A stretch of DNA of 64,000 nucleotides from contig CACZZO010000012.1 in the NCBI GenBank assembly GCA_902785755.1, positions 62,001-126,000 on the forward strand. The letters run 5' to 3'. The position numbers and the translations under genes are program-made. Below, piece after piece: positions 43 through 55,150 of this stretch (positions are counted from its first letter, which is position 1; every line of letters starts with the position of its first letter). The DNA comes from an uncultured Bacteroidia bacterium. Lineage in GTDB: Bacteria; Bacteroidota; Bacteroidia; Bacteroidales; F082. The notes under the pieces are model-generated. The model had not been told where the DNA came from. It searched no databases and saw only the letters and a list, made by a program, of their open reading frames with translations.

Positions 43-1467
43 TTAGTCTTCAAACAAGTCGTCCAAAGTGAGTTGGAAGGCCATTTCCGAAGCATAACTG
101 TTTTGCGAGGCTCCGTTGGCGGTGATGAGGGTGGGGAGGATGCCGCAGCGAGTTCCGGTTTGTTCCACGAAGGCGGCTCGGCGTTTCCTGATTTTTGCAG
201 CTTCCTCTTTGTCAAGCAGATATGCGCCTTCGCTGTATTTGATTTCGCAGAGGTTGATCATCTTGTCGGCACGCTCGATGATGAGGTCAATCTGGGTTTT
301 GTCGTTCTTCGCCTTGCTGCGCCAAGCGTAGTATTCCGTCCCGATGCCGTCGATTCGGAGTGCTTTCTTGATTTGCGGGATGTGTGCCATGCAAAGCCGC
401 TCGAAGGCGTGGCCGTACCATGTGTTGACGGTCGGGGTGCCGAGGTGATGAAGCCAATATTGCTGATCCTCAAACTGTTTGCTGGCGAAAGTGAGGTGAA
501 ACAGCGTGAAGAAATCGGTGAGTTGGAAGATGCCGCCCGTCGCCTTGATTTTCTTCTCGCGGGTGTGGTAGCGGCGGATGAGGTCGCAGTTTTCGAGGTC
601 TTCCAACTGGTTGCTGATATGTCCGTTGTCGGCGGTTTTCAGTTTCTTGGTGAGTTCCACTCGGGTGAGGCCTTTTTTGTTGGCCGCCAATTGCGCGATG
701 ATTTTCAGATAAGGTTTCTCGTTGTCAAACAGCGATTTATATAGCGATTCGTATTCCGAAGCCAGTTCGCCGCCCTTGCTGAAACACAGCCTGTCGATGT
801 TTTGGGCAAGGCTTTCGTTGTTTCTCAGAAGGCTCAGATAGTAAGGTACGCCGCCAAGCATCATGTAGGCTTGGGCTGTCATCTGGCGTGTCCAGTGGAA
901 ACCGTTGGCATTCAGGTAGTTTTCTGTTTCTTTTAGGGTGAAGGGCGCAAGATGTATGCTGTGTGTCAGGCGGTTGTGAAGTCCGCCACGGTTGTTGATG
1001 ATGTTGCGCACCATCCACGAGGTGGCACTGCCGCAAACGATGAGTTTCACCTCGTCGCGCAACGAGGCCCAAGTGTTCCAAAACTGCCCCAAAGCCCGCA
1101 CGAAAGCGCCGCCTTTCCTGTCGAAACACGGAAGTTCGTCGATGAAAATGACGCAAGGCTGGCCGTTTTTTGCTTTTTGTGTCATCAGTTCCTGCAAGGC
1201 GTGGAACAATTCCAACCAATTGGACGACAGCGGTTTTTCGTAGCCATATTCGCGCAGCGCGATTTGGAAGGCCGACACTTGTTCCGACTTTTTCCCGTAG
1301 AGCAGCCCGGAGACGGAAAACGTCAGTTCGTCTTTCATCACTTGGTTGATGAGAAAGGTTTTCCCGACGCGCCTCCGCCCGTAGAGGCCGATGAACTCGG
1401 CGTGGTTTGAGCCGATGTATTCCCGCAGCAGGGCAGTTTCTTTTTCTCTTCCTATTAAAGTAGCCAT
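43..1467 (-). CDS. AAA+ ATPase with C-terminal DUF234/PD-(D/E)XK domain (ATPase 1)
   Basis: A 474-residue archaeal-type ATPase (ATPase_2 plus DUF234 architecture). Walker A is GRRRVGKT at about residues 30-37 and Walker B is VIFIDEL at about 106-112. A winged-helix-like middle follows, and the C-terminus has a nuclease-like signature, D394 in QIDL and E408-x-K410 in CEIKYS, as in PD-(D/E)XK folds. The start at 1467 (MATLIGRE) is chosen because paralogues begin MEKIIGRE and a TATTTTTG -7 box lies at 1487-1494 on this strand; the longer reading frame would include the promoter. Palindromes lie upstream (1504-1538, 1554-1592) and downstream (1-31). The biochemical role of this family is not established. 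Nuclease activity is inferred from the motif only. Confidence 0.85.
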   Translation of the reverse strand: MATLIGREKETALLREYIGSNHAEFIGLYGRRRVGKTFLINQVMKDELTFSVSGLLYGKKSEQVSAFQIALREYGYEKPLSSNWLELFHALQELMTQKAKNGQPCVIFIDELPCFDRKGGAFVRALGQFWNTWASLRDEVKLIVCGSATSWMVRNIINNRGGLHNRLTHSIHLAPFTLKETENYLNANGFHWTRQMTAQAYMMLGGVPYYLSLLRNNESLAQNIDRLCFSKGGELASEYESLYKSLFDNEKPYLKIIAQLAANKKGLTRVELTKKLKTADNGHISNQLEDLENCDLIRRYHTREKKIKATGGIFQLTDFFTLFHLTFASKQFEDQQYWLHHLGTPTVNTWYGHAFERLCMAHIPQIKKALRIDGIGTEYYAWRSKAKNDKTQIDLIIERADKMINLCEIKYSEGAYLLDKEEAAKIRKRRAAFVEQTGTRCGILPTLITANGASQNSYASEMAFQLTLDDLFED

Positions 1468-1486
1468 AACCAATTCAATTTCGCCG

Positions 1487-1494
1487 CAAAAATA
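1487..1494 (-). promoter_or_regulatory. -7 box of ATPase 1
   Basis: TATTTTTG on the minus strand fits the Bacteroidetes TAnnTTTG -7 consensus. It lies 20 bases upstream of the ATG at 1467. The palindrome at 1504-1538 starts 9 bases further upstream and covers the expected -33 region, so a protein bound there could block initiation. Confidence 0.6.
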
Positions 1495-1503
1495 ATAAAT
1501 TTC

Positions 1504-1538
1504 GGGCGGAATTGATGAAATATTCTTCAATTCCGCCC
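1504..1538. repeat. Palindrome, 12 bp perfect arms, 11 nt loop (promoter-proximal)
   Basis: GGGCGGAATTGA (1504-1515), 11 nt loop (1516-1526), TCAATTCCGCCC (1527-1538). The arms are perfectly complementary. It differs from the neighbouring element at 1554-1592 by one base change that is compensated in the opposite arm (GGAATTGA versus GGAATCGA), which indicates that the symmetry itself is maintained. Confidence 0.9.
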
Positions 1539-37533: not shown

Positions 37534-38952
37534 ATGGAAAAGATTATCGGAAGAGAAACGGAGTTGGGCAAGTTGAACGATTATTATGAGTCGGGGAGGA
37601 GCGAGTTTGTCGCGCTTTATGGCCGCCGTCGTGTGGGCAAGACATTCCTCGTCAGAAGTTTCTTCAAAGACAAGTTCGATTTCTATGCTACTGGGGTTAT
37701 CGACGGGTCGCGCGAAACCGAAATGGAGGCTTTCCACAATGCCCTTGTGCGATATGGATATAAGGGCGAGCGGGCAAAGACTTGGATTCAGGTCTTTACC
37801 CAACTTGCGGATTTGCTGGAACGCAAAAACCGCAATCGGACACGACGTTTGACTGTATTTCTCGATGAATTGCCTTGCTTCGACACGCCTCGTTCAGGCT
37901 TTTTGCCGGCGTTGGACTTGTTCTGGAACAGCCGAGCCTCTTGGATGGACAACATCTATTTCGTGGTGTGCGGTTCGGCAACGTCATGGATGATGCGCAA
38001 TATCGTCAACAACAAGGCTGGACTGCATAAACGCACGACCCACACCATGCATTTGCGCCCATTCACTTTGGGACAGACCGAGGAATATCTCAAGAGCAGG
38101 AAGTTCCGATGGCCGAGGATTGCGGTTTTGCAGGCCTATATGGTGCTTGGCGGCGTGCCGTATTATTTGAGTCTGCTCGACCCGAAACTAAATGTCCCTG
38201 ACAACATTGACGCACTGTTTTTCTCTGCCGAACCGGAACTTGAAAACGAGTATCAGCGGCTTTTCAACTCGTTGTTTAAGAATGCCGAAGGCTATATGGA
38301 AATCATTCGGTTGCTCAGTTCTCATCGCGATGGCTATACGAGAGCGGAAATCGCGCGGGAACTGAAGATCGCGGATAACGGACACTTGTGTGAGATGATG
38401 GATGACCTGGAACATTGCGACTTCGTCCGAAGATACAATAACGGCACGCTGCAAAAAAACGGCATTTACCAGTTGATAGACTTTTTCTCGTTGTTCCATT
38501 ATAAGTTTGGCACGAACCGCGTCACCGATGAACACTTTTGGCGCAATGCCTTGGGTACTCCTGAGCAGAACAATTGGTATGGGTTAACCTTTGAGCGAGT
38601 TTGCCTATGGCATGTGAGACAGATAGTTAGAGGTTTGCGCTTGGATGCCATCAGGCATGATTATTATGCATGGCGTAGCCAAAATAGCAAACCAGCCGTC
38701 CAGATTGATTTGGTCATTGACCGCGCTGACGGCATGGTGACGATATGCGAGATGAAATATTCCAAAGATGACTACACGCTGACAGAAGGAGAATACAAAA
38801 AAATCGTACATCGCATGGAGACATTCCAAAAAGAAACGGGTTATAAAGGCGGTGTTCAGGCAAGCATAGTCACCACTTTTTCTCTTCAAAATAATATGTA
38901 TTCTGAGATTTCTCCAATCCCGATAACCATGGATGAACTATTTGTGGATTAG
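37534..38952 (+). CDS. AAA+ ATPase with C-terminal DUF234/PD-(D/E)XK domain (ATPase 2)
   Basis: A 472-residue paralogue of ATPase 1, colinear over its whole length. Walker A GRRRVGKT is at 30-37 and Walker B TVFLDELPCF near 107-116. VVCGSATSWMMRNIVNNKAGLH is shared almost word for word with ATPase 1 (sensor region). The nuclease-like signature is D392 in QIDL and E406-x-K408 in CEMKYS. Palindromes of its own private sequence flank it on both sides. It sits between mtaB and miaB in an island of fossil repeats. Function is not established; it is likely a repeat-recognising or self-regulating ATPase (inference). Confidence 0.86.
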   Translation: MEKIIGRETELGKLNDYYESGRSEFVALYGRRRVGKTFLVRSFFKDKFDFYATGVIDGSRETEMEAFHNALVRYGYKGERAKTWIQVFTQLADLLERKNRNRTRRLTVFLDELPCFDTPRSGFLPALDLFWNSRASWMDNIYFVVCGSATSWMMRNIVNNKAGLHKRTTHTMHLRPFTLGQTEEYLKSRKFRWPRIAVLQAYMVLGGVPYYLSLLDPKLNVPDNIDALFFSAEPELENEYQRLFNSLFKNAEGYMEIIRLLSSHRDGYTRAEIARELKIADNGHLCEMMDDLEHCDFVRRYNNGTLQKNGIYQLIDFFSLFHYKFGTNRVTDEHFWRNALGTPEQNNWYGLTFERVCLWHVRQIVRGLRLDAIRHDYYAWRSQNSKPAVQIDLVIDRADGMVTICEMKYSKDDYTLTEGEYKKIVHRMETFQKETGYKGGVQASIVTTFSLQNNMYSEISPIPITMDELFVD

Positions 38953-39220: not shown

Positions 39221-39242
39221 TCAAGAATCTTGCAAGCAAAAA

Positions 39243-39320
39243 ACCACTTATTCCATAAAATCAACCATAAAAATTACCACTTATTCCGTTTTTTAAGGGA
39301 GAAAAATGACCATTTATTCC
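39243..39320. repeat. 33-bp tandem repeats (2.4 copies), no ATPase attached
   Basis: ACCACTTATTCC starts at 39243 and 39276, and ACCATTTATTCC at 39309, exactly 33 bases apart; the last two continue CGTTTT. The period equals that of the repeats upstream of the truncated ATPase at 61105. The array abuts the miaB stop codon at 39314. Whether it once belonged to an ATPase gene is inferred from period only. Confidence 0.65.
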
Positions 39321-45784: not shown

Positions 45785-46483
45785 TCATTTGCTTTTGGTG
45801 ACGGAATAAAGCGTGGCGATGCCGTAGCCGAAGTGTCGCATGGTACCCTCTGTCAAACCGGCTGAGGAGAGCAAGCGAAGAAATTCCAAGGGTTTGGGAA
45901 ACCGCTCCACCGATTCGGGCAGGTAGCTGTAGGCACTCGCGTCTTTCGAGATCCATTTCCCGATTTTTGGAAGTATATGCTTGAAATACAGTGTATAAAC
46001 TTGCTTGACAGGAAACTTTTCAGGCATCGAGAACTCCAAGATGAAAGCCAGTCCATTGGGTTTCAGCACACGATGGATTTCGGAAAGGCCTTGCTTCAAG
46101 TTCTCGAAATTCCTCACCCCGAAGGCCACCGTGATGGAATCGAAACTGTTGTCCTCGAAAGGCAAGGCAGCCGCGTCGCCCAAACGCAGCTCGATTTGGC
46201 TTTCAAGACCTTTCTTCCTGACTTTCTCCATCCCAATCTCCAACATTTTTTCGGAAATGTCCATTCCGATAATATGCGCTTGCGGATTACGTTTCGCAAG
46301 GGCAATGGCCAAATCCGCCGTGCCTGTGGCGAGGTCGAGGATGGCTTTGGGATAGTAGAAGGACACGATTTTCGCGGTCTTTCGTCGCCACACCTTATCT
46401 ATATTAAGGGATAGCAAATGATTGAGCGCATCGTATTTCGGCGAGATGCGGTCGAACATGGTTGCGATGGGGGAATCACTCAT
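45785..46483 (-). CDS. ubiE: Demethylmenaquinone methyltransferase
   Basis: A 232-residue SAM methyltransferase of the UbiE/MenG family, the last step of menaquinone synthesis. MFDRISPKYDALNHLLSLNIDKVWRRK and the SAM-binding ILDLATGTADLAIAL, followed by GMDISEKMLEIG, ALPFEDNSFDSITVAFGVRN and EIHRVLKPNG, are the family motifs. The start at 46483 (MSDSPIATMFDR) overlaps the upstream glycosyltransferase by 8 bases (ATGAGTGA), implying coupling. Confidence 0.93.
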   Translation of the reverse strand: MSDSPIATMFDRISPKYDALNHLLSLNIDKVWRRKTAKIVSFYYPKAILDLATGTADLAIALAKRNPQAHIIGMDISEKMLEIGMEKVRKKGLESQIELRLGDAAALPFEDNSFDSITVAFGVRNFENLKQGLSEIHRVLKPNGLAFILEFSMPEKFPVKQVYTLYFKHILPKIGKWISKDASAYSYLPESVERFPKPLEFLRLLSSAGLTEGTMRHFGYGIATLYSVTKSK

Positions 46484-47486
46484 GGCCGACCAGTTTTTTG
46501 ATGATTTGGCTTGGCGCAATGCCGTTCAAGCAAGCGTAATCGCCTCTGAAACAGGGTTTGTTGCCGTAAACAGAGCAGGGACGGCAGGGCAAATCGAGTT
46601 GGACGCAATCGGCAGGTTTTTGGTTCCAGCCCAAGAATCCAGCGTAAGGATGGGTGCCGCCCCAAATGGAAACCACCCGCGTCCCGACCAACGAAGCCAA
46701 GTGCATGTTGGCCGAGTCCATCGAAAGCATCATGTCCAATTGGCCCATCAGGGCAAGTTCACCCGCCAAACCATGCAGGCTTTTGGCGGGTTGCACATTC
46801 GGGTATTTGGCGCAAAGTTCCGCAATCTTCCGTTTCTCATCCTCGCCACCACCGAAAAGAAAAACGCTTGTGTTTTCCCTTTCGCTTAAGGCCTTGATGA
46901 CTTCCTCCAGCTTTTCCATTGGATAGACTTTGGCAGGATGTTTGGCAAACGGCGCAATACCAATCCAAGTTTCATTAGTCGCTTTTTGCGTCCCGCAAAA
47001 ATCTGAATAATCGAGTTTTGTGAATTGCGGTTTTATTGGGAAACTCAATTGTTCCAGTACCTTGGCGTAACGCTCAAAGGAAGTTGCCTGTTGCACAAAA
47101 ACCTTGTTTTTCTGCCTCGTCAAAGCCTTTTTCCCTTTGCGCCCTTTGTCGATTTTGACGACTTTTTGTCCAAGCATTCGGCAATTCAACCTCACTATAA
47201 TGCTGCGTAATACATCATGGAAATCTGCAACATAGTCAAAGTTCTCATAGTGGAGATCGTTTGTTATCAAGCGGTTCAAGCCAAAAAAACCTTTGTGCCG
47301 GCCTTCCAAATCGGCACCAAAAAAATGTACATTTTGGGGCATTAGCTCAAACAACGGCTTTGCCATTGGTCGGCTGAGCATGGTAATCTCCAAATCAGGG
47401 TATTGAGTGGCCAAGTCATAGACCACGGGCACCGTCATGGCGATGTCGCCGAGGGCTGAGAACCTTATGACGAGGAGTTTTTTCAT
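46476..47486 (-). CDS. Glycosyltransferase family 9 (heptosyltransferase-like)
   Basis: A 336-residue GT-B glycosyltransferase. It begins KKLLVIRFSALGDIAMTVPVV, the GT9 N-terminal signature, and carries WIGIAPFAKHPAKVYPMEKLEEV and the nucleotide-sugar-binding LMLSMDSANMHLASLVGTRVVSIWG near the C-terminus. It likely transfers a sugar in the lipopolysaccharide core at the inner membrane face. A Cys-rich stretch near the end (CVQLDLPCRPCSVYGNKPC) is common in the Bacteroidetes branch. The start at 47486 is set by homology. It is coupled to ubiE. Confidence 0.9.
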   Translation of the reverse strand: MKKLLVIRFSALGDIAMTVPVVYDLATQYPDLEITMLSRPMAKPLFELMPQNVHFFGADLEGRHKGFFGLNRLITNDLHYENFDYVADFHDVLRSIIVRLNCRMLGQKVVKIDKGRKGKKALTRQKNKVFVQQATSFERYAKVLEQLSFPIKPQFTKLDYSDFCGTQKATNETWIGIAPFAKHPAKVYPMEKLEEVIKALSERENTSVFLFGGGEDEKRKIAELCAKYPNVQPAKSLHGLAGELALMGQLDMMLSMDSANMHLASLVGTRVVSIWGGTHPYAGFLGWNQKPADCVQLDLPCRPCSVYGNKPCFRGDYACLNGIAPSQIIKKLVGHE

Positions 47487-47582
47487 TTTAAATGGTTTTC
47501 GGTGCAAAAATACCGAAAAAAGGCATATTTTTTGTTGCTTTCTCAAAAAAACAAAAAAAGACTTGCAAATAACTTTTTTTTC

Positions 47583-47590
47583 TATTTTTG
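47583..47590 (+). promoter_or_regulatory. -7 box of the T9SS cargo gene
   Basis: TATTTTTG, 28 bases before the ATG at 47619, divergent from the GT9 gene. Confidence 0.5.
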
Positions 47591-47618
47591 CCGAATAACA
47601 AATAAATGAAACATCGCC

Positions 47619-48905
47619 ATGAAAAGAACATTGTTTACACTAATTGTTTGTGCGACTGCCATAAGCTCGGTCTTCGCACAAGTCGAGGATGAAACTGTGT
47701 TTCAACCTACACAGGTCATCGGTAGGAGAATCAATGAAAATGGAGAGATTTCCATGACAATGGAATCTGAATTCATTTATGAGGAGAATGGCAAGCTCTC
47801 AAGATTTGAGATTCCTGCGTATCTTCTTACGACAAACTACGCTTATTCTGGGAACTATCTTACTCAGGAAAGCACGTTTCACCAAGGAGGTCATCCTAAC
47901 TTTTATGAAACAGCCAACTTCACGTATGAGAATGGGCAAATCAAGACAGTTGAACATTTTATGGGCCAAATGGGAAGCAACCAGTATTGGCTTTATACTT
48001 ACTACGATGATGGACGATTGGCAAGGAAAGACCAAAAGATAGACTACGAAGACTACCACATGCACTGGCTCTACGACTATGAGGATGAAGGCAAGACCGT
48101 TATTGAGAGCTATTGGACTTCATGGGTGAGTGAGGGCATGTTGCTCAGACAAAGGACAGTTCACCAATATGACGATAGCTATAATCTGATTTCGTCTCAT
48201 TCGGAAAGCTATAATGTTGAAGGTGAATTGACTTCAACTGTTTTGACGGTTTATGCTTACACATCAAGCGGAAAGAAAGAATTGGAGACCACGCTGTCCC
48301 TCATGGATGGCGAGTGGGTTAATTCTTCCATTGTGCGATACGCCTATGACGAGCAGGACCGTATTGCTGAACAACTTGACGGCATTTGGGATGCAGAGAA
48401 TGGTGAGTGGGACTATAGAAAAAGAATCGCGTATGAGACTTCGGAAGATGGACAGACTTGTACCGTTTCGTTCTACAAAAAAGTGGATGATGATTGGGAA
48501 TGGGATGTTTTCAATTGCCAACCAATCTTTTTCGGTTCATATCTGCAATCACAACAGAGAGCGTTAGGCTTCTATTCCTATGAGCCATTGATGGGGTTTG
48601 CCAGAATCAACCAGTTCGAAATCACCCTCGTTGAGATGAATAGACCCACTTATTGGAACGTGAAAGAAAGCCAGGATTTGTCGTGTGGCGTTTATCCTAA
48701 CCCTGGACATGCCAACTTGTATGTGGATGCTCCCATTGAGAACGCCGTAATCCGCATTTACAATCTGCAAGGCCAACTTCTGCAAGTCAAGTCATTTGAT
48801 TTTAGAACAGAAATCAATTCCGAAAGCTGGCCTTCAGGAATGTATGTTTGGGAGATTTGGCACGACAACAAAAGGGAAGCCAAGGGTAAGTGGGTGAAAG
48901 AATAA
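47619..48905 (+). CDS. Secreted protein with T9SS type A sorting domain
   Basis: A 428-residue exported protein (signal MKRTLFTLIVCATAISSVFA). The body consists of beta-strand repeats with YxYDxxGR-like signatures (YTYYDDGRLARKDQ, YAYDEQDRIAEQ), resembling YD/RHS-like or MORN-like repeats. The C-terminus VYPNPGHANLYVDAPIENAVIRIYNLQGQLL ending KGKWVKE is a type A T9SS sorting domain. It should be surface-exposed or released. It converges with the DUF4254 gene, with 6 bases between. Confidence 0.85.
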   Translation: MKRTLFTLIVCATAISSVFAQVEDETVFQPTQVIGRRINENGEISMTMESEFIYEENGKLSRFEIPAYLLTTNYAYSGNYLTQESTFHQGGHPNFYETANFTYENGQIKTVEHFMGQMGSNQYWLYTYYDDGRLARKDQKIDYEDYHMHWLYDYEDEGKTVIESYWTSWVSEGMLLRQRTVHQYDDSYNLISSHSESYNVEGELTSTVLTVYAYTSSGKKELETTLSLMDGEWVNSSIVRYAYDEQDRIAEQLDGIWDAENGEWDYRKRIAYETSEDGQTCTVSFYKKVDDDWEWDVFNCQPIFFGSYLQSQQRALGFYSYEPLMGFARINQFEITLVEMNRPTYWNVKESQDLSCGVYPNPGHANLYVDAPIENAVIRIYNLQGQLLQVKSFDFRTEINSESWPSGMYVWEIWHDNKREAKGKWVKE

Positions 48906-48911
48906 GGAACT

Positions 48912-49451
48912 TTACTGTTTCTGTCCGTAAAGCACGGGGTTGAGGTTCGGGTCGTTGTACATCTTCATCTGCTTGTAAACCTTCATCACCTTTTCGCCCG
49001 TCTTGTAGCACTCCATCAGTTGGTCGATGGCGGTGCAAAGGTCGGTGTTTTGTTCTTGCAACACGCGCAGTTTTTCCTCGCACTCTGCCTTGTGTTCCTC
49101 GCTCACGTCGGTGCGCTCCACTTCGGCCTTCATGTGGTAAATCTTCAACTGAAGAATCGAAAGCCTATCGATGGCCCAAGCGGGACTCTCCGTGTTGAGC
49201 GTGGCGTTGGCTTTCGGTTCAACACGTTGGAAAAGAAGAAGATAGTAACCGTCAATCATCTCCACGAGGTCAGTCCTGTCTTGGTTCGACTTGTCGATGC
49301 GGCGCTTCAAAGCCAAAGCCTCCACAGGGTCGATGTTCGGGTCGCGGATGAGGTCTTCCAAGTGCCACTGCACCGTGTCGATCCACACCTTATTATAAAG
49401 ATACCATTCGATGGTCAGTCTTTCGTAAGGGTTTTCGCAAGGATGATTCAC
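48912..49451 (-). CDS. DUF4254 protein with uncertain, repeat-invaded 5' end
   Basis: A soluble helical protein. NPYERLTIEWYLYNKVWIDTVQWHLEDLIRDPNIDP and LALKRRIDKSNQDRTDLVEMID mark DUF4254, a Bacteroidetes family often near glycosyltransferases. The coordinates use the first GTG (49451). The frame stays open upstream with conserved-looking DYHKFDD codons that should belong to the protein. There is no ATG in the frame until it runs into the inverted dispersed repeat at 49496-49564, which is read as LSLSKARFQN. Either a TTG near 49555 is used or the native start was lost when the repeat inserted. Confidence 0.8.
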   Translation of the reverse strand: MNHPCENPYERLTIEWYLYNKVWIDTVQWHLEDLIRDPNIDPVEALALKRRIDKSNQDRTDLVEMIDGYYLLLFQRVEPKANATLNTESPAWAIDRLSILQLKIYHMKAEVERTDVSEEHKAECEEKLRVLQEQNTDLCTAIDQLMECYKTGEKVMKVYKQMKMYNDPNLNPVLYGQKQ

Positions 49452-49495
49452 GTCGTCAAACTTATGATAGTCGGCTGTTTCGATGTTTTGAAAAC

Positions 49496-49564
49496 GGGCC
49501 TTCGACAGGCTCAGGCACCTTGCCTCTCGTAAAAAACAGAGGTCCCTGAGCTTGTCAAAGGGCC
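49496..49564. repeat. Inverted pair of GAGCCTGTCGAA-type repeats
   Basis: GGGCCTTCGACAGGCTCAGG plus CACC (49496-49519) faces GGTCCCTGAGCTTGTCAAAG plus GGCC (49541-49564). The 24-base arms match at 20 positions, with a 21-base spacer. It can fold into one large hairpin and separates the DUF4254 gene from the aminotransferase stop at 49573. Confidence 0.88.
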
Positions 49565-49572
49565 GACTTTAA

Positions 49573-50781
49573 TTAGTGCAGTTTGGCTAATGCAGCCTTG
49601 ATGCGTTTCACGGCCTCGATGAGTTTGTCCTCGCTCGTGGCATACGACAGCCGGATACAGTCGTCGTTGCCGAAGGCGTTGCCGGCCACGCAGGCCACAT
49701 GGGCATTGTAGAGCAGCCACATGCAGAGGTCGTCGCTGCCCTTGATGGTGGTCTCGCCGTCGGTCTTGCCGTAGAACGACTTCACTTCGGGGAAGACGTA
49801 GAACGCGCCAGCGGGAGTGTTGCACTTCACGCCAGGGATTTCGTTCAGCAGTTTCACGAAAGTGTCGCGGCGGTGGCGGAAGGCCTTCAGCATTTCTTGG
49901 ATTTCCGTTGAGTTTTCGGGGCTGAGTTCCATGGCCTTGGCTGCGGCGGCTTGCGCGATGGTGCAGATACCAGAGGTGATTTGGCCTTGGATCTTGTTGG
50001 TGGCCTTCACGATGGCTTGGGGTGCGGCGATGTAACCGATGCGCCAACCCGTCATGGCATAGCCCTTGGCCACGCCGTTGACGAGGACGAGGCGGTCTTT
50101 CAGGAAATCGAACTGGCCCATGCTCTCGTGCTTCTGCTCATATTGGATGAACTCATAAATCTCGTCGGAGATGATGATGATTTGGGGATATTTCTTCAAG
50201 ACTTCGGCGATAGCGGTCAGTTCGGCCTTGGTGAACACGCTGCCGCTGGGGTTGCAAGGCGTGTTGATCATGAACACCTTGGTCTTGGGTGTGATGGCCT
50301 TTTCGAGTTGCTCGGCGGTGATTTTGAAATCGTGCTCGATGTCGCTCTTGACGATGACGGGCACGCCGCCAGCCAACTTCACCATTTCGGGGTAGGAGAC
50401 CCAGAACGGGGCGGGGATGATGACCTCGTCGCCGTCGTTGACGATGGCCAAAAGTGCATTGTTGATGGCCTGCTTGGCACCGTTGGAAACGAGGATGTCG
50501 GTTTCCTTGTAGTCGAGGCCGTTGTCGCGTTTCAGTTTGTTGGCGATGGCCTTGCGCAGCGCGGGCGTGCCGGGCACGGGCGGGTAGTGCGTGTCGTTGT
50601 TGTTGATGGCGTCCACACCGGCTTGCTTGGCCGATTCGGGCGTGTTGAAGTCGGGTTCGCCGATGCTCAGGCTGATGACGTCGATGCCTTGTGCTTTCAG
50701 TTCACGGCTCTTGTTGGTCATGGCTAAGGTTGCCGATTCAGCCATGTTCAAAACTCTGTTGGAAAGGATGATTTCACTCAT
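49573..50781 (-). CDS. aspC: Pyridoxal-phosphate aminotransferase (aspartate aminotransferase family)
   Basis: A 402-residue class I/II aminotransferase. ISLSIGEPDFNTP, NNDTHYPPVPGTPALRKAI and NPSGSVFTKAEL precede the PLP lysine region LVNGVAKGYAMTGWRIGYIA (Lys near residue 242). The C-terminal GNAFGNDDCIRLSYA is also typical. It is of the subgroup Ib aspartate/prephenate aminotransferase type, transferring the amino group of aspartate or glutamate to 2-oxoacids. Transcribed alone, or with DUF4254 if read through the hairpin. Confidence 0.91.
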   Translation of the reverse strand: MSEIILSNRVLNMAESATLAMTNKSRELKAQGIDVISLSIGEPDFNTPESAKQAGVDAINNNDTHYPPVPGTPALRKAIANKLKRDNGLDYKETDILVSNGAKQAINNALLAIVNDGDEVIIPAPFWVSYPEMVKLAGGVPVIVKSDIEHDFKITAEQLEKAITPKTKVFMINTPCNPSGSVFTKAELTAIAEVLKKYPQIIIISDEIYEFIQYEQKHESMGQFDFLKDRLVLVNGVAKGYAMTGWRIGYIAAPQAIVKATNKIQGQITSGICTIAQAAAAKAMELSPENSTEIQEMLKAFRHRRDTFVKLLNEIPGVKCNTPAGAFYVFPEVKSFYGKTDGETTIKGSDDLCMWLLYNAHVACVAGNAFGNDDCIRLSYATSEDKLIEAVKRIKAALAKLH

Positions 50782-50908
50782 GATTTATGTTTAAATGTTT
50801 AATTGTTGTTTGTTGAATTGAATGGGCAAAGGTAGGCCTTTTTTTGCTTCAAAAGCCATGCTTTTCGCTTTTTTTTGTCGTTTGTTCGTTTCGTGTGTCG
50901 ATTTTTTC

Positions 50909-50916
50909 TATTTTTG
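50909..50916 (+). promoter_or_regulatory. -7 box of the FISUMP-like small gene
   Basis: TATTTTTG, 61 bases before the ATG at 50978. Confidence 0.45.
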
Positions 50917-50977
50917 TCGCCTGATTGAAACAGATTTGGTTCAATATTTGATGTGCCAAAGGGAAAAAATTGAAGTT

Positions 50978-51610
50978 ATGCGTAAAATAGCAAGACATTT
51001 GATGACGGCGCTCCTGATTATGGTTGCAGCGCCATTTGTGAAGGCTCAAGTTCACGTGGGCGACATTCTTTGCGAAGGCAATGTCGTTGTCAGCCCCAGT
51101 AGTTTTGCGGTTTCAGGACATACCCCCATCGGCGTGGTGTTCCATGTGGATGGCTCGCGGCAGCATGGCTGGGCTGTGGGCTTGAAAGACTTGGGCAAAT
51201 ATGCATGGGGACCCAATAGTGTTGATACCCGTGTGCGTAACTATAGGGGAATGCAGGAAGCCGTGAGCGACTTCAACGGCTATGCCCATACCAAAACCCT
51301 CATCGAGGCGGGATACGACATCGAATATCCGGCTTTTGATTCCCTCGACTTCAAGAACGGTTGGTATTTGCCTGCCATTGGCCAAATGAAACGCCTTTAT
51401 GCCAACTTGGGCAAGGTGGATGAAAGCCTTTCGACGGTCGGAGGCACGACATTTTCCAGCAATGGCGAATGGGAGTATTGGTCGTCGACTGAGTATTCCC
51501 TATGCAATGCTTGGTTCATGGATTCCTTCGGCAAGTTGCATTATAAGGATGTGACCTACAACGGCAGCAAGGATGGCAGAAGATATGTGCGCGCAGTGAT
51601 AAACTTCTGA
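50978..51610 (+). CDS. Exported DUF1566/FISUMP-like protein
   Basis: A 210-residue exported protein (signal MRKIARHLMTALLIMVAAPFVKAQ). The folded part contains GWYLPAIGQMKRLYANLG, TTFSSNGEWEYWSSTEYS and GRRYVRAVINF, the end-of-domain pattern shared by Lcl C-terminal/DUF1566 and Fibrobacter succinogenes major paralogous domains, a C-type-lectin-like fold. The start at 50978 is set by the signal peptide. Function is unknown; surface display or binding is likely. Confidence 0.78.
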   Translation: MRKIARHLMTALLIMVAAPFVKAQVHVGDILCEGNVVVSPSSFAVSGHTPIGVVFHVDGSRQHGWAVGLKDLGKYAWGPNSVDTRVRNYRGMQEAVSDFNGYAHTKTLIEAGYDIEYPAFDSLDFKNGWYLPAIGQMKRLYANLGKVDESLSTVGGTTFSSNGEWEYWSSTEYSLCNAWFMDSFGKLHYKDVTYNGSKDGRRYVRAVINF

Positions 51611-51816
51611 ACCGTTTTGCCTGACAATAATGCCTCTGCACCTGAGTTGTGTGGAGGCATTTGTTTTTTGATTGGGAGGCATGTTGAGGAGAAAAATTGA
51701 TGGCTAATTGAGGATATGAATCGCGATTCGAGTGCTAAAACGGTGAAAAATTCGTGGTTTTAGCAACTGAATCCGAAATTTTTGTTTTTTTGCCTCGAAA
51801 CCAATCGGGATTCATC
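51611..51816. other. Intergenic stretch with a 9-bp palindrome beside the ATPase scar
   Basis: TGCTAAAAC (51733-51741) and GTTTTAGCA (51757-51765) face each other over 15 bases; if the inner GG/TG is counted the loop is 11, as in the ATPase palindromes. GCGATTC...GTGCTAAAAC (51723-51741) recurs as GCGATTC...GTGCTAAACT at 53494-53512, beyond ATPase 3. No gene is seen. Confidence 0.6.
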
Positions 51817-51934
51817 ATGCAGAAAAAAGTCATTGGTCGGAAAGAGGAAATTTTCCGGATTGCAAAGAAACGCCTATTCGGAGTACATCATCGCCCAAAT
51901 CACACTTGACGACTTGTTTGAGGAAACGCCGTAG
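51817..51934 (+). pseudogene. Scar of a DUF234-type ATPase: N-terminus joined to C-terminus
   Basis: From the ATG at 51817 the frame reads MQKKVIGRKEEIFRIAKK, the same start as ATPases 1 and 2 (IGRE.E). One frame over, at 51863-51934, it reads QRNAYSEYIIAQITLDDLFEE then TP and stop, matching NSYASEMAFQLTLDDLFED at the end of ATPase 1. About 430 codons between the two are missing and the frame is shifted at the joint. This is an internal-deletion relic of a third DUF234-type paralogue. Confidence 0.8.
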
Positions 51935-51942
51935 CCTAAAAT

Positions 51943-52070
51943 CGGAAAAAGTCCCTTTTTTGCCCCTTAAAATCACGGAATAATTCCCCTTTTTAGGCAG
52001 AAATTTTCGGAAAAAGTCCCCTTTTTTGATGATTTTTTTCGGAAAAAATCCCCTTTTCTTGCAGGAATGA
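51943..52070. repeat. 32-33 bp tandem repeats upstream of ATPase 3 (4 copies)
   Basis: CGGAAAAAGTCCC at 51943, CGGAATAATTCCCC at 51976, CGGAAAAAGTCCCC at 52008 and CGGAAAAAATCCCC at 52040, followed by CTTTT. Units begin 33, 32 and 32 bases apart. Each has a small palindrome AAAAAG-TCC(C)-CTTTTT. Between the conserved 19 or so bases there are 13-base variable parts. The array ends just before the -7 box at 52082. Confidence 0.88.
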
Positions 52071-52081
52071 ACTGATTTATA

Positions 52082-52089
52082 TATTTTTG
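52082..52089 (+). promoter_or_regulatory. -7 box of ATPase 3
   Basis: TATTTTTG, 17 bases before the ATG at 52107, directly downstream of the tandem repeats. Confidence 0.6.
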
Positions 52090-52106
52090 CGAAAAATTTG
52101 AGAATT

Positions 52107-53480
52107 ATGCTATACAGGAAGTTCGAAAAGCGCATCGAAAAGTTCTTTCGGGAAGAGCCGAACAAGATTCTTTTGGTGAACGGAGCGAGGCAAATCGGCA
52201 AGTCGTACCTCATCCGTTATGTGGGGAAAAAGATGTTCAAGAACTATGTCGAAATCAACCTCAAGGAAGACAGGGAAAGCCGAGGCATCTTTGCCACTGC
52301 CATGAATACGGAAGACTTTTACATGCAGTTGGGCACCATTGCCGGCAACCGCCTCGGCAGCAAGAAAGACACCTTGGTCTTTTTGGACGAGATACAAAGT
52401 TATCCACACCTGATGACCATGTTGAAGTTTCTGAACCAAGAGGGGCGATACACCTACGTGGCCAGCGGTTCGCAGTTGGGCGTGGCCTTGACGCAGACCG
52501 CCTCCGTTCCTATAGGAAGCATTTCAATAGAAGAAATGTATCCGCTTGATTTTGAAGAGTTTTTGCTTGCCATGGGTTGCGGACAGGAAACCATTAACGG
52601 GATAAAGGAAAAGTTTCTCGCGGGAGAATCGCTGAATGAATCCTTGCACAACTACATGTTGCAGCAGTTCAAACTCTATTTGTTGGTCGGCGGGCTGCCC
52701 GAAGCCATCAACAAGTTCTTGGAAAACAGGAATATGGCGCAGGTGAGGAAGGTGCATCGCGACATTCACAACTTATACAGAATCGATGCCTCGCAATACG
52801 ACGCGGAGAAGAAACTGCTCATTCGGAAGATTTACGACATGATTCCTTCCTACATGGAGAACAAGAAGAAGCGCATCATCGTGAAGCGCATCGAAGAGAC
52901 CGCCAAGCACAAGCAGTTCAACGACTATGCCGACGAGTTCGAGTATCTGACCAACTCGGGCATTGCCCTTGGTGTGCAAGCCGTCAGTAATCCGAAGTTT
53001 CCTCTGCTGGAATCGGAGAGCAAGAACCTGCTCAAACTCTACATGAACGACGTGGGACTGCTGACCAACCTCTTGTACGACCTCAATATCAATGCGGTGC
53101 TGCGCGACGAGCGGAGTATCAACCTTGGTTCGGTGTATGAGAGCGTGGTTGCGCAAGAACTTCACGCACATGGATTTCCGCTGCATTATTATGACAACAA
53201 GCAAAAGGGCGAAGTGGATTTCCTGATTGACGATTATGAGCATCTTTCGGTTTTGCCGTTGGAGGTAAAGTCGGGCAAGGACTACACCGTGCACAGTGCC
53301 TTGAACAATTTCATAAACACGCCCGACTACCACATCCAAAAGGCCGTTGTATTAAATAATGCGCGGGAAGTCGCGGTGAAAAACGGAATTACCTATCTGC
53401 CGATTTATTATTGCATGTTTTATCAGCGGGATGGATTGCGGGATGAAGAGGCTTTGGTGATTCCGGAGATAAGCCTGTAA
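52107..53480 (+). CDS. AAA+ ATPase with DUF4143/PD-(D/E)XK domain (ATPase 3)
   Basis: A 457-residue protein of the AAA_14/DUF4143 family. Walker A GARQIGKS is at 26-33 and Walker B LVFLDEIQSY near 90-99. GSQLGVALTQTASVPIGS and YPLDFEEFL are the conserved AAA_14 blocks. The C-terminal nuclease-like signature has D371 in GEVDFLI and E386-x-K388 in PLEVKSG. These proteins are numerous in Bacteroidetes and archaea, with unknown function. The 32-33 bp repeats are immediately upstream. A Schlafen/AlbA-type gene follows after about 115 bases. The start at 52107 is preferred to the TTG at 52098. Confidence 0.88.
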   Translation: MLYRKFEKRIEKFFREEPNKILLVNGARQIGKSYLIRYVGKKMFKNYVEINLKEDRESRGIFATAMNTEDFYMQLGTIAGNRLGSKKDTLVFLDEIQSYPHLMTMLKFLNQEGRYTYVASGSQLGVALTQTASVPIGSISIEEMYPLDFEEFLLAMGCGQETINGIKEKFLAGESLNESLHNYMLQQFKLYLLVGGLPEAINKFLENRNMAQVRKVHRDIHNLYRIDASQYDAEKKLLIRKIYDMIPSYMENKKKRIIVKRIEETAKHKQFNDYADEFEYLTNSGIALGVQAVSNPKFPLLESESKNLLKLYMNDVGLLTNLLYDLNINAVLRDERSINLGSVYESVVAQELHAHGFPLHYYDNKQKGEVDFLIDDYEHLSVLPLEVKSGKDYTVHSALNNFINTPDYHIQKAVVLNNAREVAVKNGITYLPIYYCMFYQRDGLRDEEALVIPEISL

Positions 53481-53493
53481 TCAACCCCCAACT

Positions 53494-53512
53494 GCGATTC
53501 ATGTGCTAAACT
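53494..53512. repeat. Copy of the 51723-51741 motif beyond ATPase 3
   Basis: GCGATTCATGTGCTAAACT against GCGATTCGAGTGCTAAAAC at 51723-51741. With the scar at 51817 it makes ATPase 3 and its array look inserted inside an older, decayed ATPase locus. Confidence 0.55.
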
Positions 53513-53564
53513 GATAGAAAGACTTGAAATTTTGCCGATTGGCAGAAAAATGCCGATTTATTTG

Positions 53565-53572
53565 TAACTTTG
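53565..53572 (+). promoter_or_regulatory. -7 box of the AlbA_2 gene
   Basis: TAACTTTG, 24 bases before the ATG at 53597. Confidence 0.5.
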
Positions 53573-53596
53573 CAGACTTTTAACAGTTAGTGTATT

Positions 53597-55150
53597 ATGA
53601 CAGCGGATGAATTGAGAGAGATTATTGCCTGCGGCGAAACCAGCACCGTGCAATTCAAGTTGAAGTTCAGCACGGCGAAGCAGATTGCCGAGGAAATGGT
53701 GGCTTTTGCCAACAGCAAGGGCGGTATGATAGTGTTTGGCGTGGAGGATAAAACAGGTCAGATTATTGGGCTGTCGTACAGCGAGATACAAATGTTATCA
53801 AACGAAGTTTCAACGGACGCCAACGACCAAGTGAGGCCTGTGATATATTTGCAAACCGAGGTCGTGATTGTGGATGGCAAGCGTTTGTTGGTAGCGTATG
53901 TCAATCAGGGCAGCAACAAACCCTACAAGACTCTTTCAGGTAACATTTGGGTGAAACAAGGCTCTGACAAACGCCGCATCGTGGAGAACAACGAGATTTT
54001 GTCGCTGTTTCAGGCTTCGGGGAGTTATCATGCCGACGAGGCTGTCATTGCGGGCACCAGCATGGCCGACCTTGAAGTGGCTTATATTAACGACTATTTT
54101 CAAAAGGTGTATGGCAAGCCGAAAGAGTCGTTTGGGATGCCTGTCGATAAACTTTTGACGAGTTTGGGCATTTTAGGAAACGGCGGTCAGGTGACTCGTG
54201 CGGGCATGTTGTTTTTCGGCCAATACCCGCAAATGAGGATGCCGACTTACACCATCAAGGCGGTGGCTTATTATGGCAACGACATTGGCGGCAGCGATTA
54301 CCGCGACAGCCGCGACATCATTGGAACGGTTCCCACAATGTTCCGCGAGGGGATGTCGTTCTTGAAGTCGAACTTGCACCATTTGCAGGCAGGGCAAAAC
54401 TTCAACAGCGTGGGCAAATTGGAAATCCCCGAGGTGGTGCTGGAGGAATTACTACAAAACGCCTTGGTGCATGTGGATTTATTGGGCTCGGCGTATATCC
54501 GTCTACTGATATTCGACAACCGTATTGAAATCATCAATCCGGGCAGTTTGTTTGGCGGCTTGACTGTTGAGGACATCCGTTTGGGCAAATCCAAGCAGCG
54601 CAACCATTTGATGGCCGAGTTTTGTGCGCGGACGATGATTTACCGTGGTTTGGGTTCCGGCATTCCCAGAGTATTGAAAGAGGACGCCAAGATTGACTTT
54701 GTCAGCGATGACGGCTTTGGCGATTTCAAAACCGTCATTTGGAGGGATACCGATTTGGTGGGGGGGGAGGATGGTTCGGAGAAAACTGATGAAAGTACCC
54801 AGAAAATGGTCAATAACGAAGTTGTAAAGTTGGTAGAAAATAATGAAAACTTGGTAGAAAACGCCAAAACATTGGTAGGAAACCCAGAAATATTGGTAGG
54901 AAACCCAGAAAAGTTGGTAGAAGGAATGTTGGTAGGAAAATCGCGGCAACGGCGTTTGAATATTTTGAAAGCCATTGCTGAAAATCCTAATGTTACGGCA
55001 CAGCAATTGGCTGGACAGTTTGGTATTAGCATTACCGCAGTCCAAAACCATCTTGATTATCTAAAAAACAACAATCTTATCCGTCGTGTCGGTCCTGATA
55101 AGGGTGGACATTGGGAAGTGGTTGGAATGTCTGAAAAGATGTCTGATTAA
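53597..55150 (+). CDS. Schlafen/AlbA_2 domain ATP-binding regulator with heptad-repeat linker
   Basis: A 517-residue protein. The N-terminal AlbA_2/Schlafen domain (about 10-135) has ETSTVQFKLKFSTAKQIAEEMVAFANSKGGMIVFGVED. The middle part has the HATPase_c_4 region (EVVLEELLQNALVHVDLLGSAYIRL...NPGSLFGGLTVEDI). A linker at residues 412-435 is made of seven-residue units (LVENNEN, LVENAKT, LVGNPEI, LVGNPEK), and a winged-helix domain (about 455-510) follows. Such proteins are putative transcriptional regulators or defence-linked sensors. It lies 116 bases after ATPase 3; whether they act together is unknown. Confidence 0.86.
   Translation: MTADELREIIACGETSTVQFKLKFSTAKQIAEEMVAFANSKGGMIVFGVEDKTGQIIGLSYSEIQMLSNEVSTDANDQVRPVIYLQTEVVIVDGKRLLVAYVNQGSNKPYKTLSGNIWVKQGSDKRRIVENNEILSLFQASGSYHADEAVIAGTSMADLEVAYINDYFQKVYGKPKESFGMPVDKLLTSLGILGNGGQVTRAGMLFFGQYPQMRMPTYTIKAVAYYGNDIGGSDYRDSRDIIGTVPTMFREGMSFLKSNLHHLQAGQNFNSVGKLEIPEVVLEELLQNALVHVDLLGSAYIRLLIFDNRIEIINPGSLFGGLTVEDIRLGKSKQRNHLMAEFCARTMIYRGLGSGIPRVLKEDAKIDFVSDDGFGDFKTVIWRDTDLVGGEDGSEKTDESTQKMVNNEVVKLVENNENLVENAKTLVGNPEILVGNPEKLVEGMLVGKSRQRRLNILKAIAENPNVTAQQLAGQFGISITAVQNHLDYLKNNNLIRRVGPDKGGHWEVVGMSEKMSD
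54830..54940 (+). repeat. 21-bp tandem repeat coding for seven-residue units
   Basis: TTGGTAG starts at 54830, 54851, 54872, 54893 and 54914, every 21 bases, then 54929 after a 15-base unit. The repeat keeps the reading frame, so the number of units can change without a frameshift. Confidence 0.9.

Follow-up and report, generated by a model that had tools for sequence, protein, structure and literature searches.

A 118-bp sequence on the plus strand of the window (i.e., the whole stretch of 64,000 nucleotides analysed in this work), at positions 51817-51934, is in all likelihood the dead remnant of an ATPase_2/PDC-S27 gene, lost by stepwise deletion from a palindrome-bounded unit. The sequence joins codons 1-12 of a gene of the ATPase_2 family (PADLOC class PDC-S27) to the final 24-26 codons of that gene, which lie in another frame. 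Frame 1, read from 51817, corresponds to MQKKVIGRKEEI, its translation opening with MQKKVIGRKEEIF, and frame 2 ends in GLQRNAYSEYIIAQITLDDLFEETP before the stop codon at 51934. Only codons 1-12 and about 455-480 are left, out of frame, and the ATPase and nuclease motifs are absent; the feature is a relic, and not a working PDC-S27 member. The preliminary description had proposed that a family start is followed directly, in another frame, by a family end; both pieces were found here, with the end NAYSEYIIAQITLDDLFEE lying in frame 2 after the MQKKVIGRKEE start. An internal deletion with a single joint had also been proposed, of which the deletion holds, but six mid-gene nucleotides (TTTTCC) survive, so that the joint is double. 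Upstream of the relic (Table 1), the -7 box reads TTTTTTTG in the window and in a second genome (G018), and TATTTTTG in three others (G094, G097 and G098); promoters of the Bacteroidetes type follow the pattern TTTG..TAnnTTTG.

Table 1. Features at and around the relic (window positions).
Feature	Positions	Strand	Remarks
Private palindrome of the GCTAAA subfamily	51733..51765	+	Arms 51733-51741 and 51757-51765; centre rich in A/T; the old promoter follows immediately
Decayed promoter with 5' UTR	51774..51816	+	From sequence comparison
Gene-start remnant	51817..51851	+	Parent bases 1-35, MQKKVIGRKEE
TTTTCC, six mid-gene bases between the two deletion joints	51851..51856	+	Parent 151-156; also in the G094 allele
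Gene-end remnant with original stop codon	51856..51934	+	Parent 1365-1443; C-terminal 24-26 residues
PDC-S01 (AAA_14 + DUF4143) unit	51940..53480	+	Gene 52107-53480; four GGAAAAAGTCCC-type repeats, spacing 32-33 nt
GCGATTCATGTGCTAAAC, single arm of a GCTAAA-type palindrome	53494..53511	+	Beyond the PDC-S01 unit; collinearity with G098 returns at 53512

A search for the palindrome in 99 genomes of the genus led to a locus holding an intact parent gene, in RUG11511 (G098; contig CACXQV010000024.1, loci L093/L115). This gene comprises 1443 bp and encodes 480 residues, with MQKKVIGRKEEIRLLNKY at the start and GLQRTPYSEHITMQITMDDLFREIE at the end, before the stop codon; its first 12 residues are identical to those of the relic, and its C-terminus matches the last 24 residues of the relic at 67% (E 7e-5, in a small sequence set). 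Either side of the parent gene, G098 is collinear with the window (46001-51851 and 53512-54788), with an Lcl_C-type gene upstream and a Schlafen-type gene downstream in both, and the window sequence from 53512 onward starts directly after the parent stop codon. A full-length gene expected in relatives between these flanks was therefore found, and the reading as an internal-deletion relic of an ATPase family is borne out by this parent at the orthologous locus; the proposed span, from the 51733 palindrome to the 53494 motif, stood as regards the full gene in a relative, although the 53494 motif is one palindrome arm only. The window also holds two intact relatives (43-1530, minus strand; 37534-38952, plus strand), and its genome (G000) about 23 near-full-length paralogues.

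The order of the deletions was derived from an intermediate allele in G094 (L095/L117), which retains parent bases 1-35, 151-271 and 1149-1443 with nothing between (codons 1-12, 51-90 and 384-480), and whose DNA agrees with the palindrome, start and tail of the window at 95.7-96.7%. The window and G018, a separate genome with the same relic joint, retain parent bases 1-35, TTTTCC (151-156) and 1365-1443. The three genomes have in common a first, 115-bp deletion (parent 36-150), and the intermediate and the window share the joint AATTTTCC; at least two steps were therefore needed to form the relic, and not one deletion as had been supposed. The second deletion in the G000/G018 lineage removed 1208 bp (parent 157-1364), and a separate event in G094 removed 877 bp (parent 272-1148); these joint positions may be wrong by one or two bases, since the reference G098 is a relative and not the ancestor. 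In total, 1325 bp are missing from the window relic, out of frame. Parent, intermediate and remnant alleles are thus all extant, which is a rare case. Microhomology had been suggested at the deletion joint, and the first joint and the second joint of the window show about 1 bp each of ambiguity between left and right parent sequence and nothing longer; therefore, the deletions were not driven by long microhomology.

It is improbable that one internal deletion made the relic and that the likeness of its left joint to G094 is a coincidence. Only six middle bases are shared, as that account would allow, but their order and position are exactly those predicted by the first joint of G094. In G094, in G018 and in the window alike, one and the same stop codon leads through an identical junction, GTAGCCTAAAATCGGAAAAAG, into the same PDC-S01 unit. 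This 6-nt shared joint and the shared neighbouring unit are the reasons for the order of deletions given above; since G094 has its relic elsewhere in the chromosome, this scheme presupposes a step of recombination.

The parent protein matches PDC-S27 over its whole length (E 4.3e-188 over residues 2-476), while the window copy of this class is a 118-bp relic, and it also matches Pfam PF01637 (ATPase_2; E 7e-17, 62.4 bits, cut-off 33.2). The earlier label of a DUF234-type ATPase was imprecise, the family being matched strongly through ATPase_2 and PDC-S27 but DUF234 (PF03008) at 17.7 bits, below the gathering cut-off of 22.5; some paralogues do pass this cut-off (23-27 bits). According to structure prediction (mean pLDDT 75), the parent combines an Orc1/Cdc6-like ATPase of the STAND type with a PD-(D/E)XK-like nuclease domain at its C-terminus. 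The best structural matches, over parent residues 3-328, were the archaeal Walker-type ATPases 2qen (Pyrococcus abyssi; Z 12.6) and 2fna (Sulfolobus SSO1545; Z 11.4), and both leave out the C-terminal domain. Folded alone (pLDDT 89), this domain displays a PD-(D/E)XK-like core (E34-41 E48-56 E62-68 H78-95 E101-107) with invariant D398, E412 and K414, and its closest structure is AF1548 (1y88; E 2e-5), with McrC and EndoMS among weaker matches. The model contains the core of the PD-(D/E)XK superfamily (three strands-helix-strand, D and E-x-K), and the domain is a predicted nuclease. A PDB sequence search with the parent gave no convincing relative, the relic region gave no match among phage records, and phage and plasmid proteins related to the parent fall short of 60% identity.

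The palindrome that had been reported upstream of the relic (TGCTAAAAC-15 nt-GTTTTAGCA) proved real by comparison with shuffled sequence, its core pattern being present once in the window against 0.08 expected, and its 31-nt core is identical in G018, G094, G097 and G098. Similar arrangements surround the family at large. An inverted repeat (arms of 9 bp or longer) was found 40-220 bp upstream in 40 of 49 distinct full-length genes, a set that includes orthologues and is not fully independent, against a mean of 1.05 and a maximum of 3 in mononucleotide (not dinucleotide) shuffles; a more distant upstream control region, which is independent of shuffling, showed none. Downstream, within 180 bp, inverted repeats were present in 26/49 (shuffled mean 0.7). 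In about half of the genes the two flanks share one palindrome sequence, which differs from subfamily to subfamily. We found no account of the palindromes of these genes in the open-access literature. Because the upstream palindrome adjoins the promoter, a role as operator is equally possible as one as unit end.

For the TGAGTTTTTTCC subfamily, the sole one examined in this respect, members with 77-99% protein identity occur at several unrelated loci, and their likeness begins exactly at the outer boundary of the palindrome upstream (-103) and ends at that of the palindrome downstream (about +64), i.e., the ends are defined by repeats where homology stops, as in transposons. Joined-flank searches at the loci of this subfamily revealed no clean empty site, and a 2.4-kb difference at one of them was discarded as an element, as it corresponds to an aldehyde dehydrogenase-like gene missing from G000. 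At other loci, there are empty sites. G018 and G099 lack the paralogue G000:C3:34379-35806 and have, at its site, a single TTTTTGCTTTGGTTTTTCGGTGA in place of the two copies that flank the G000 insert (23-bp direct repeat); this insert extends some 50-75 bp past the palindromes on either side. The paralogue G000:C1:78285-79712 is absent from G094 and G098, and the right joint there lies a few bases at most from the edge of the palindrome; at this second occupied/empty locus 41-45 bp are replaced, with no target duplication seen. A third paralogue is absent from G094. These comparisons show that these candidate defence genes come and go as discrete units. Decaying copies would be expected of a parent family made up of such palindrome-bounded units, gained and lost at chromosomal sites.

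Among the 99 congeners, the subfamily of the relic has four full-length copies, against broken ones in G000/G018/G094, G118 and G033. In G118, the palindromes are followed by codons 300-480, everything from palindrome to codon 300 being gone; in G033, whose locus has an intact allele (L109), they are followed by roughly the final 14-18 codons, promoter and start having been lost. Elsewhere in the family, G071 retains codons 1-85 and then 215-472, a second, multiply deleted relic on contig C30 of G000 retains codons 4-58, 84-207 and 410-472 between two copies of its own palindrome, and another member in G018 has lost the upstream palindrome, the promoter and the first 19 codons. The relic count in G000 is a lower bound, and palindrome retention is biased upward, several broken copies having been found via the palindrome. 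The proposal that the ends of these genes persist describes the window relic, which kept start and tail, but fails for G033, G118 and the G018 member, which lost start, promoter or upstream palindrome. The simplest account is that deletions within a dead gene are tolerated and those into neighbours are not, which leaves scraps at the ends: the deletions may be ordinary illegitimate, near homology-free events, the first frameshift would kill the gene and make later deletions neutral, and neighbouring genes would limit the reach of deletion, so that the remaining scraps would sit at gene ends. As a separate observation, in G097 at the locus of the window (L096; G097:C131:3722-4050) the ATPase palindrome and promoter now precede another gene, with an RNA-like leader, joined at the -7 box; this is a promoter capture after loss of the ATPase gene.

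We consider it very improbable that the relic is a MITE-like miniature, in which the palindrome and the gene ends were kept as cis-acting sequences and moved in trans by a full-length relative. As in MITEs and internally deleted transposon copies, the ends are kept and the middle is lost, and related full units are palindromic at both ends, where they terminate; further, the palindrome core is identical in five genomes, and relic and PDC-S01 unit lie at another locus in G094. However, MITEs occur in several copies per genome and the relic is single, its palindrome pattern being found once in G000, which argues against multiplication and likewise led us to reject a REP-like dispersal of the palindrome. 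Moreover, there is neither a second palindrome upstream nor an intact one downstream, the kept codons are not part of any shared end (they are absent from G033 and G118), other relics are without start codons, the parent is without a known transposase, and recombination across the PDC-S01 unit would account equally well for the change of locus in G094. REP-associated (RAYT) and IS200/IS605-type units also consist of one gene flanked by private palindromes, as in PDC-S27 units, but the PDC-S27 parent is a predicted ATPase-nuclease, not a Y1 transposase, and the relic palindrome lies nowhere else in the genome.

Across the relic, G000 and G018 show 0/118 differences. The relic belongs to a tract (50782-51934; compared with G018, L068) in which the Lcl_C-type gene is 0.95% divergent, against 5.1% in the adjoining aminotransferase gene, and this tract of about 1% divergence lies between one gene at 5% and one at 4%. 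The sequence comparison points to a probable recent exchange between species, so the identity of the relic to G018 is due to this exchange and not to any importance of the relic, and constraint was discarded as its cause. A conserved short gene or leader peptide is therefore scarcely credible: a 30-codon frame is open from the ATG and free of differences from G018, but the near-identity is that of the exchanged tract, the G094 allele departs from this reading beyond codon 12, no counterpart turned up elsewhere among the 99 congeners, and the joined peptide is out of frame behind a mutated -7 box.

The PDC-S01 unit adjoins the relic in the window, G018 and G094, and is absent from the G098 locus. 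Because the G098 counterpart of 53512 directly follows the stop codon, this unit was either inserted beside the relic in the lineage of the window or later lost in G098. Some side observations concern such units and the leader mentioned above. In congeners, the PDC-S01 (DUF4143) gene with its GGAAAAAGTCCC repeats has different neighbours, the similarity beginning at the repeats and ending near the stop, and the G104 copy (L099:3595-3802) is itself an internal-deletion relic. An orphan array of CCACTTATTCC-like repeats (39236-39320) adjoins the end of the 39314-40711 gene, a PDC-S01-like layout with no such gene beside it. Finally, a dispersed RNA-like leader of about 230-270 nt precedes varied, mostly secreted-protein genes, with matches in 60/99 congeners and several copies per genome (L245:1501-1769, L246:1501-1769, L252:1501-1781, the last being G000:C1:137132-137412; further loci L247-L274). 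Its consensus fold scores -98.8 vs -37.7 for column-shuffled alignments, with 15/66 pairs changed on both sides, and three loci scanned against Rfam, two of them holding the leader, gave no match at E up to 1.

Taken alone, the relic is an ordinary pseudogene, and the parent family is of more interest. PDC-S27 is counted among abundant candidate defence genes in rumen MAG surveys (PMC13356809; archaea: PMC12988326), and no mention of private palindromes, empty sites or decay was found in the portions of these two articles consulted. The abundant phage-defence candidates studied here sit in units with gene-private palindromes, empty sites and frequent decay. It is possible, though on the whole unlikely, that PDC-S27 units are minimal mobile elements, in which one STAND-ATPase/PD-(D/E)XK protein would insert the unit, or maintain it, through action on palindromes private to that unit. 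If so, the rumen abundance of PDC-S27 'defence candidates' would reflect selfish spread, and the relic in the window would be a dead copy; if the protein acts on its own palindrome, these genes may be selfish elements, or else defence genes that carry their own means of movement, as opposed to plain host defence.
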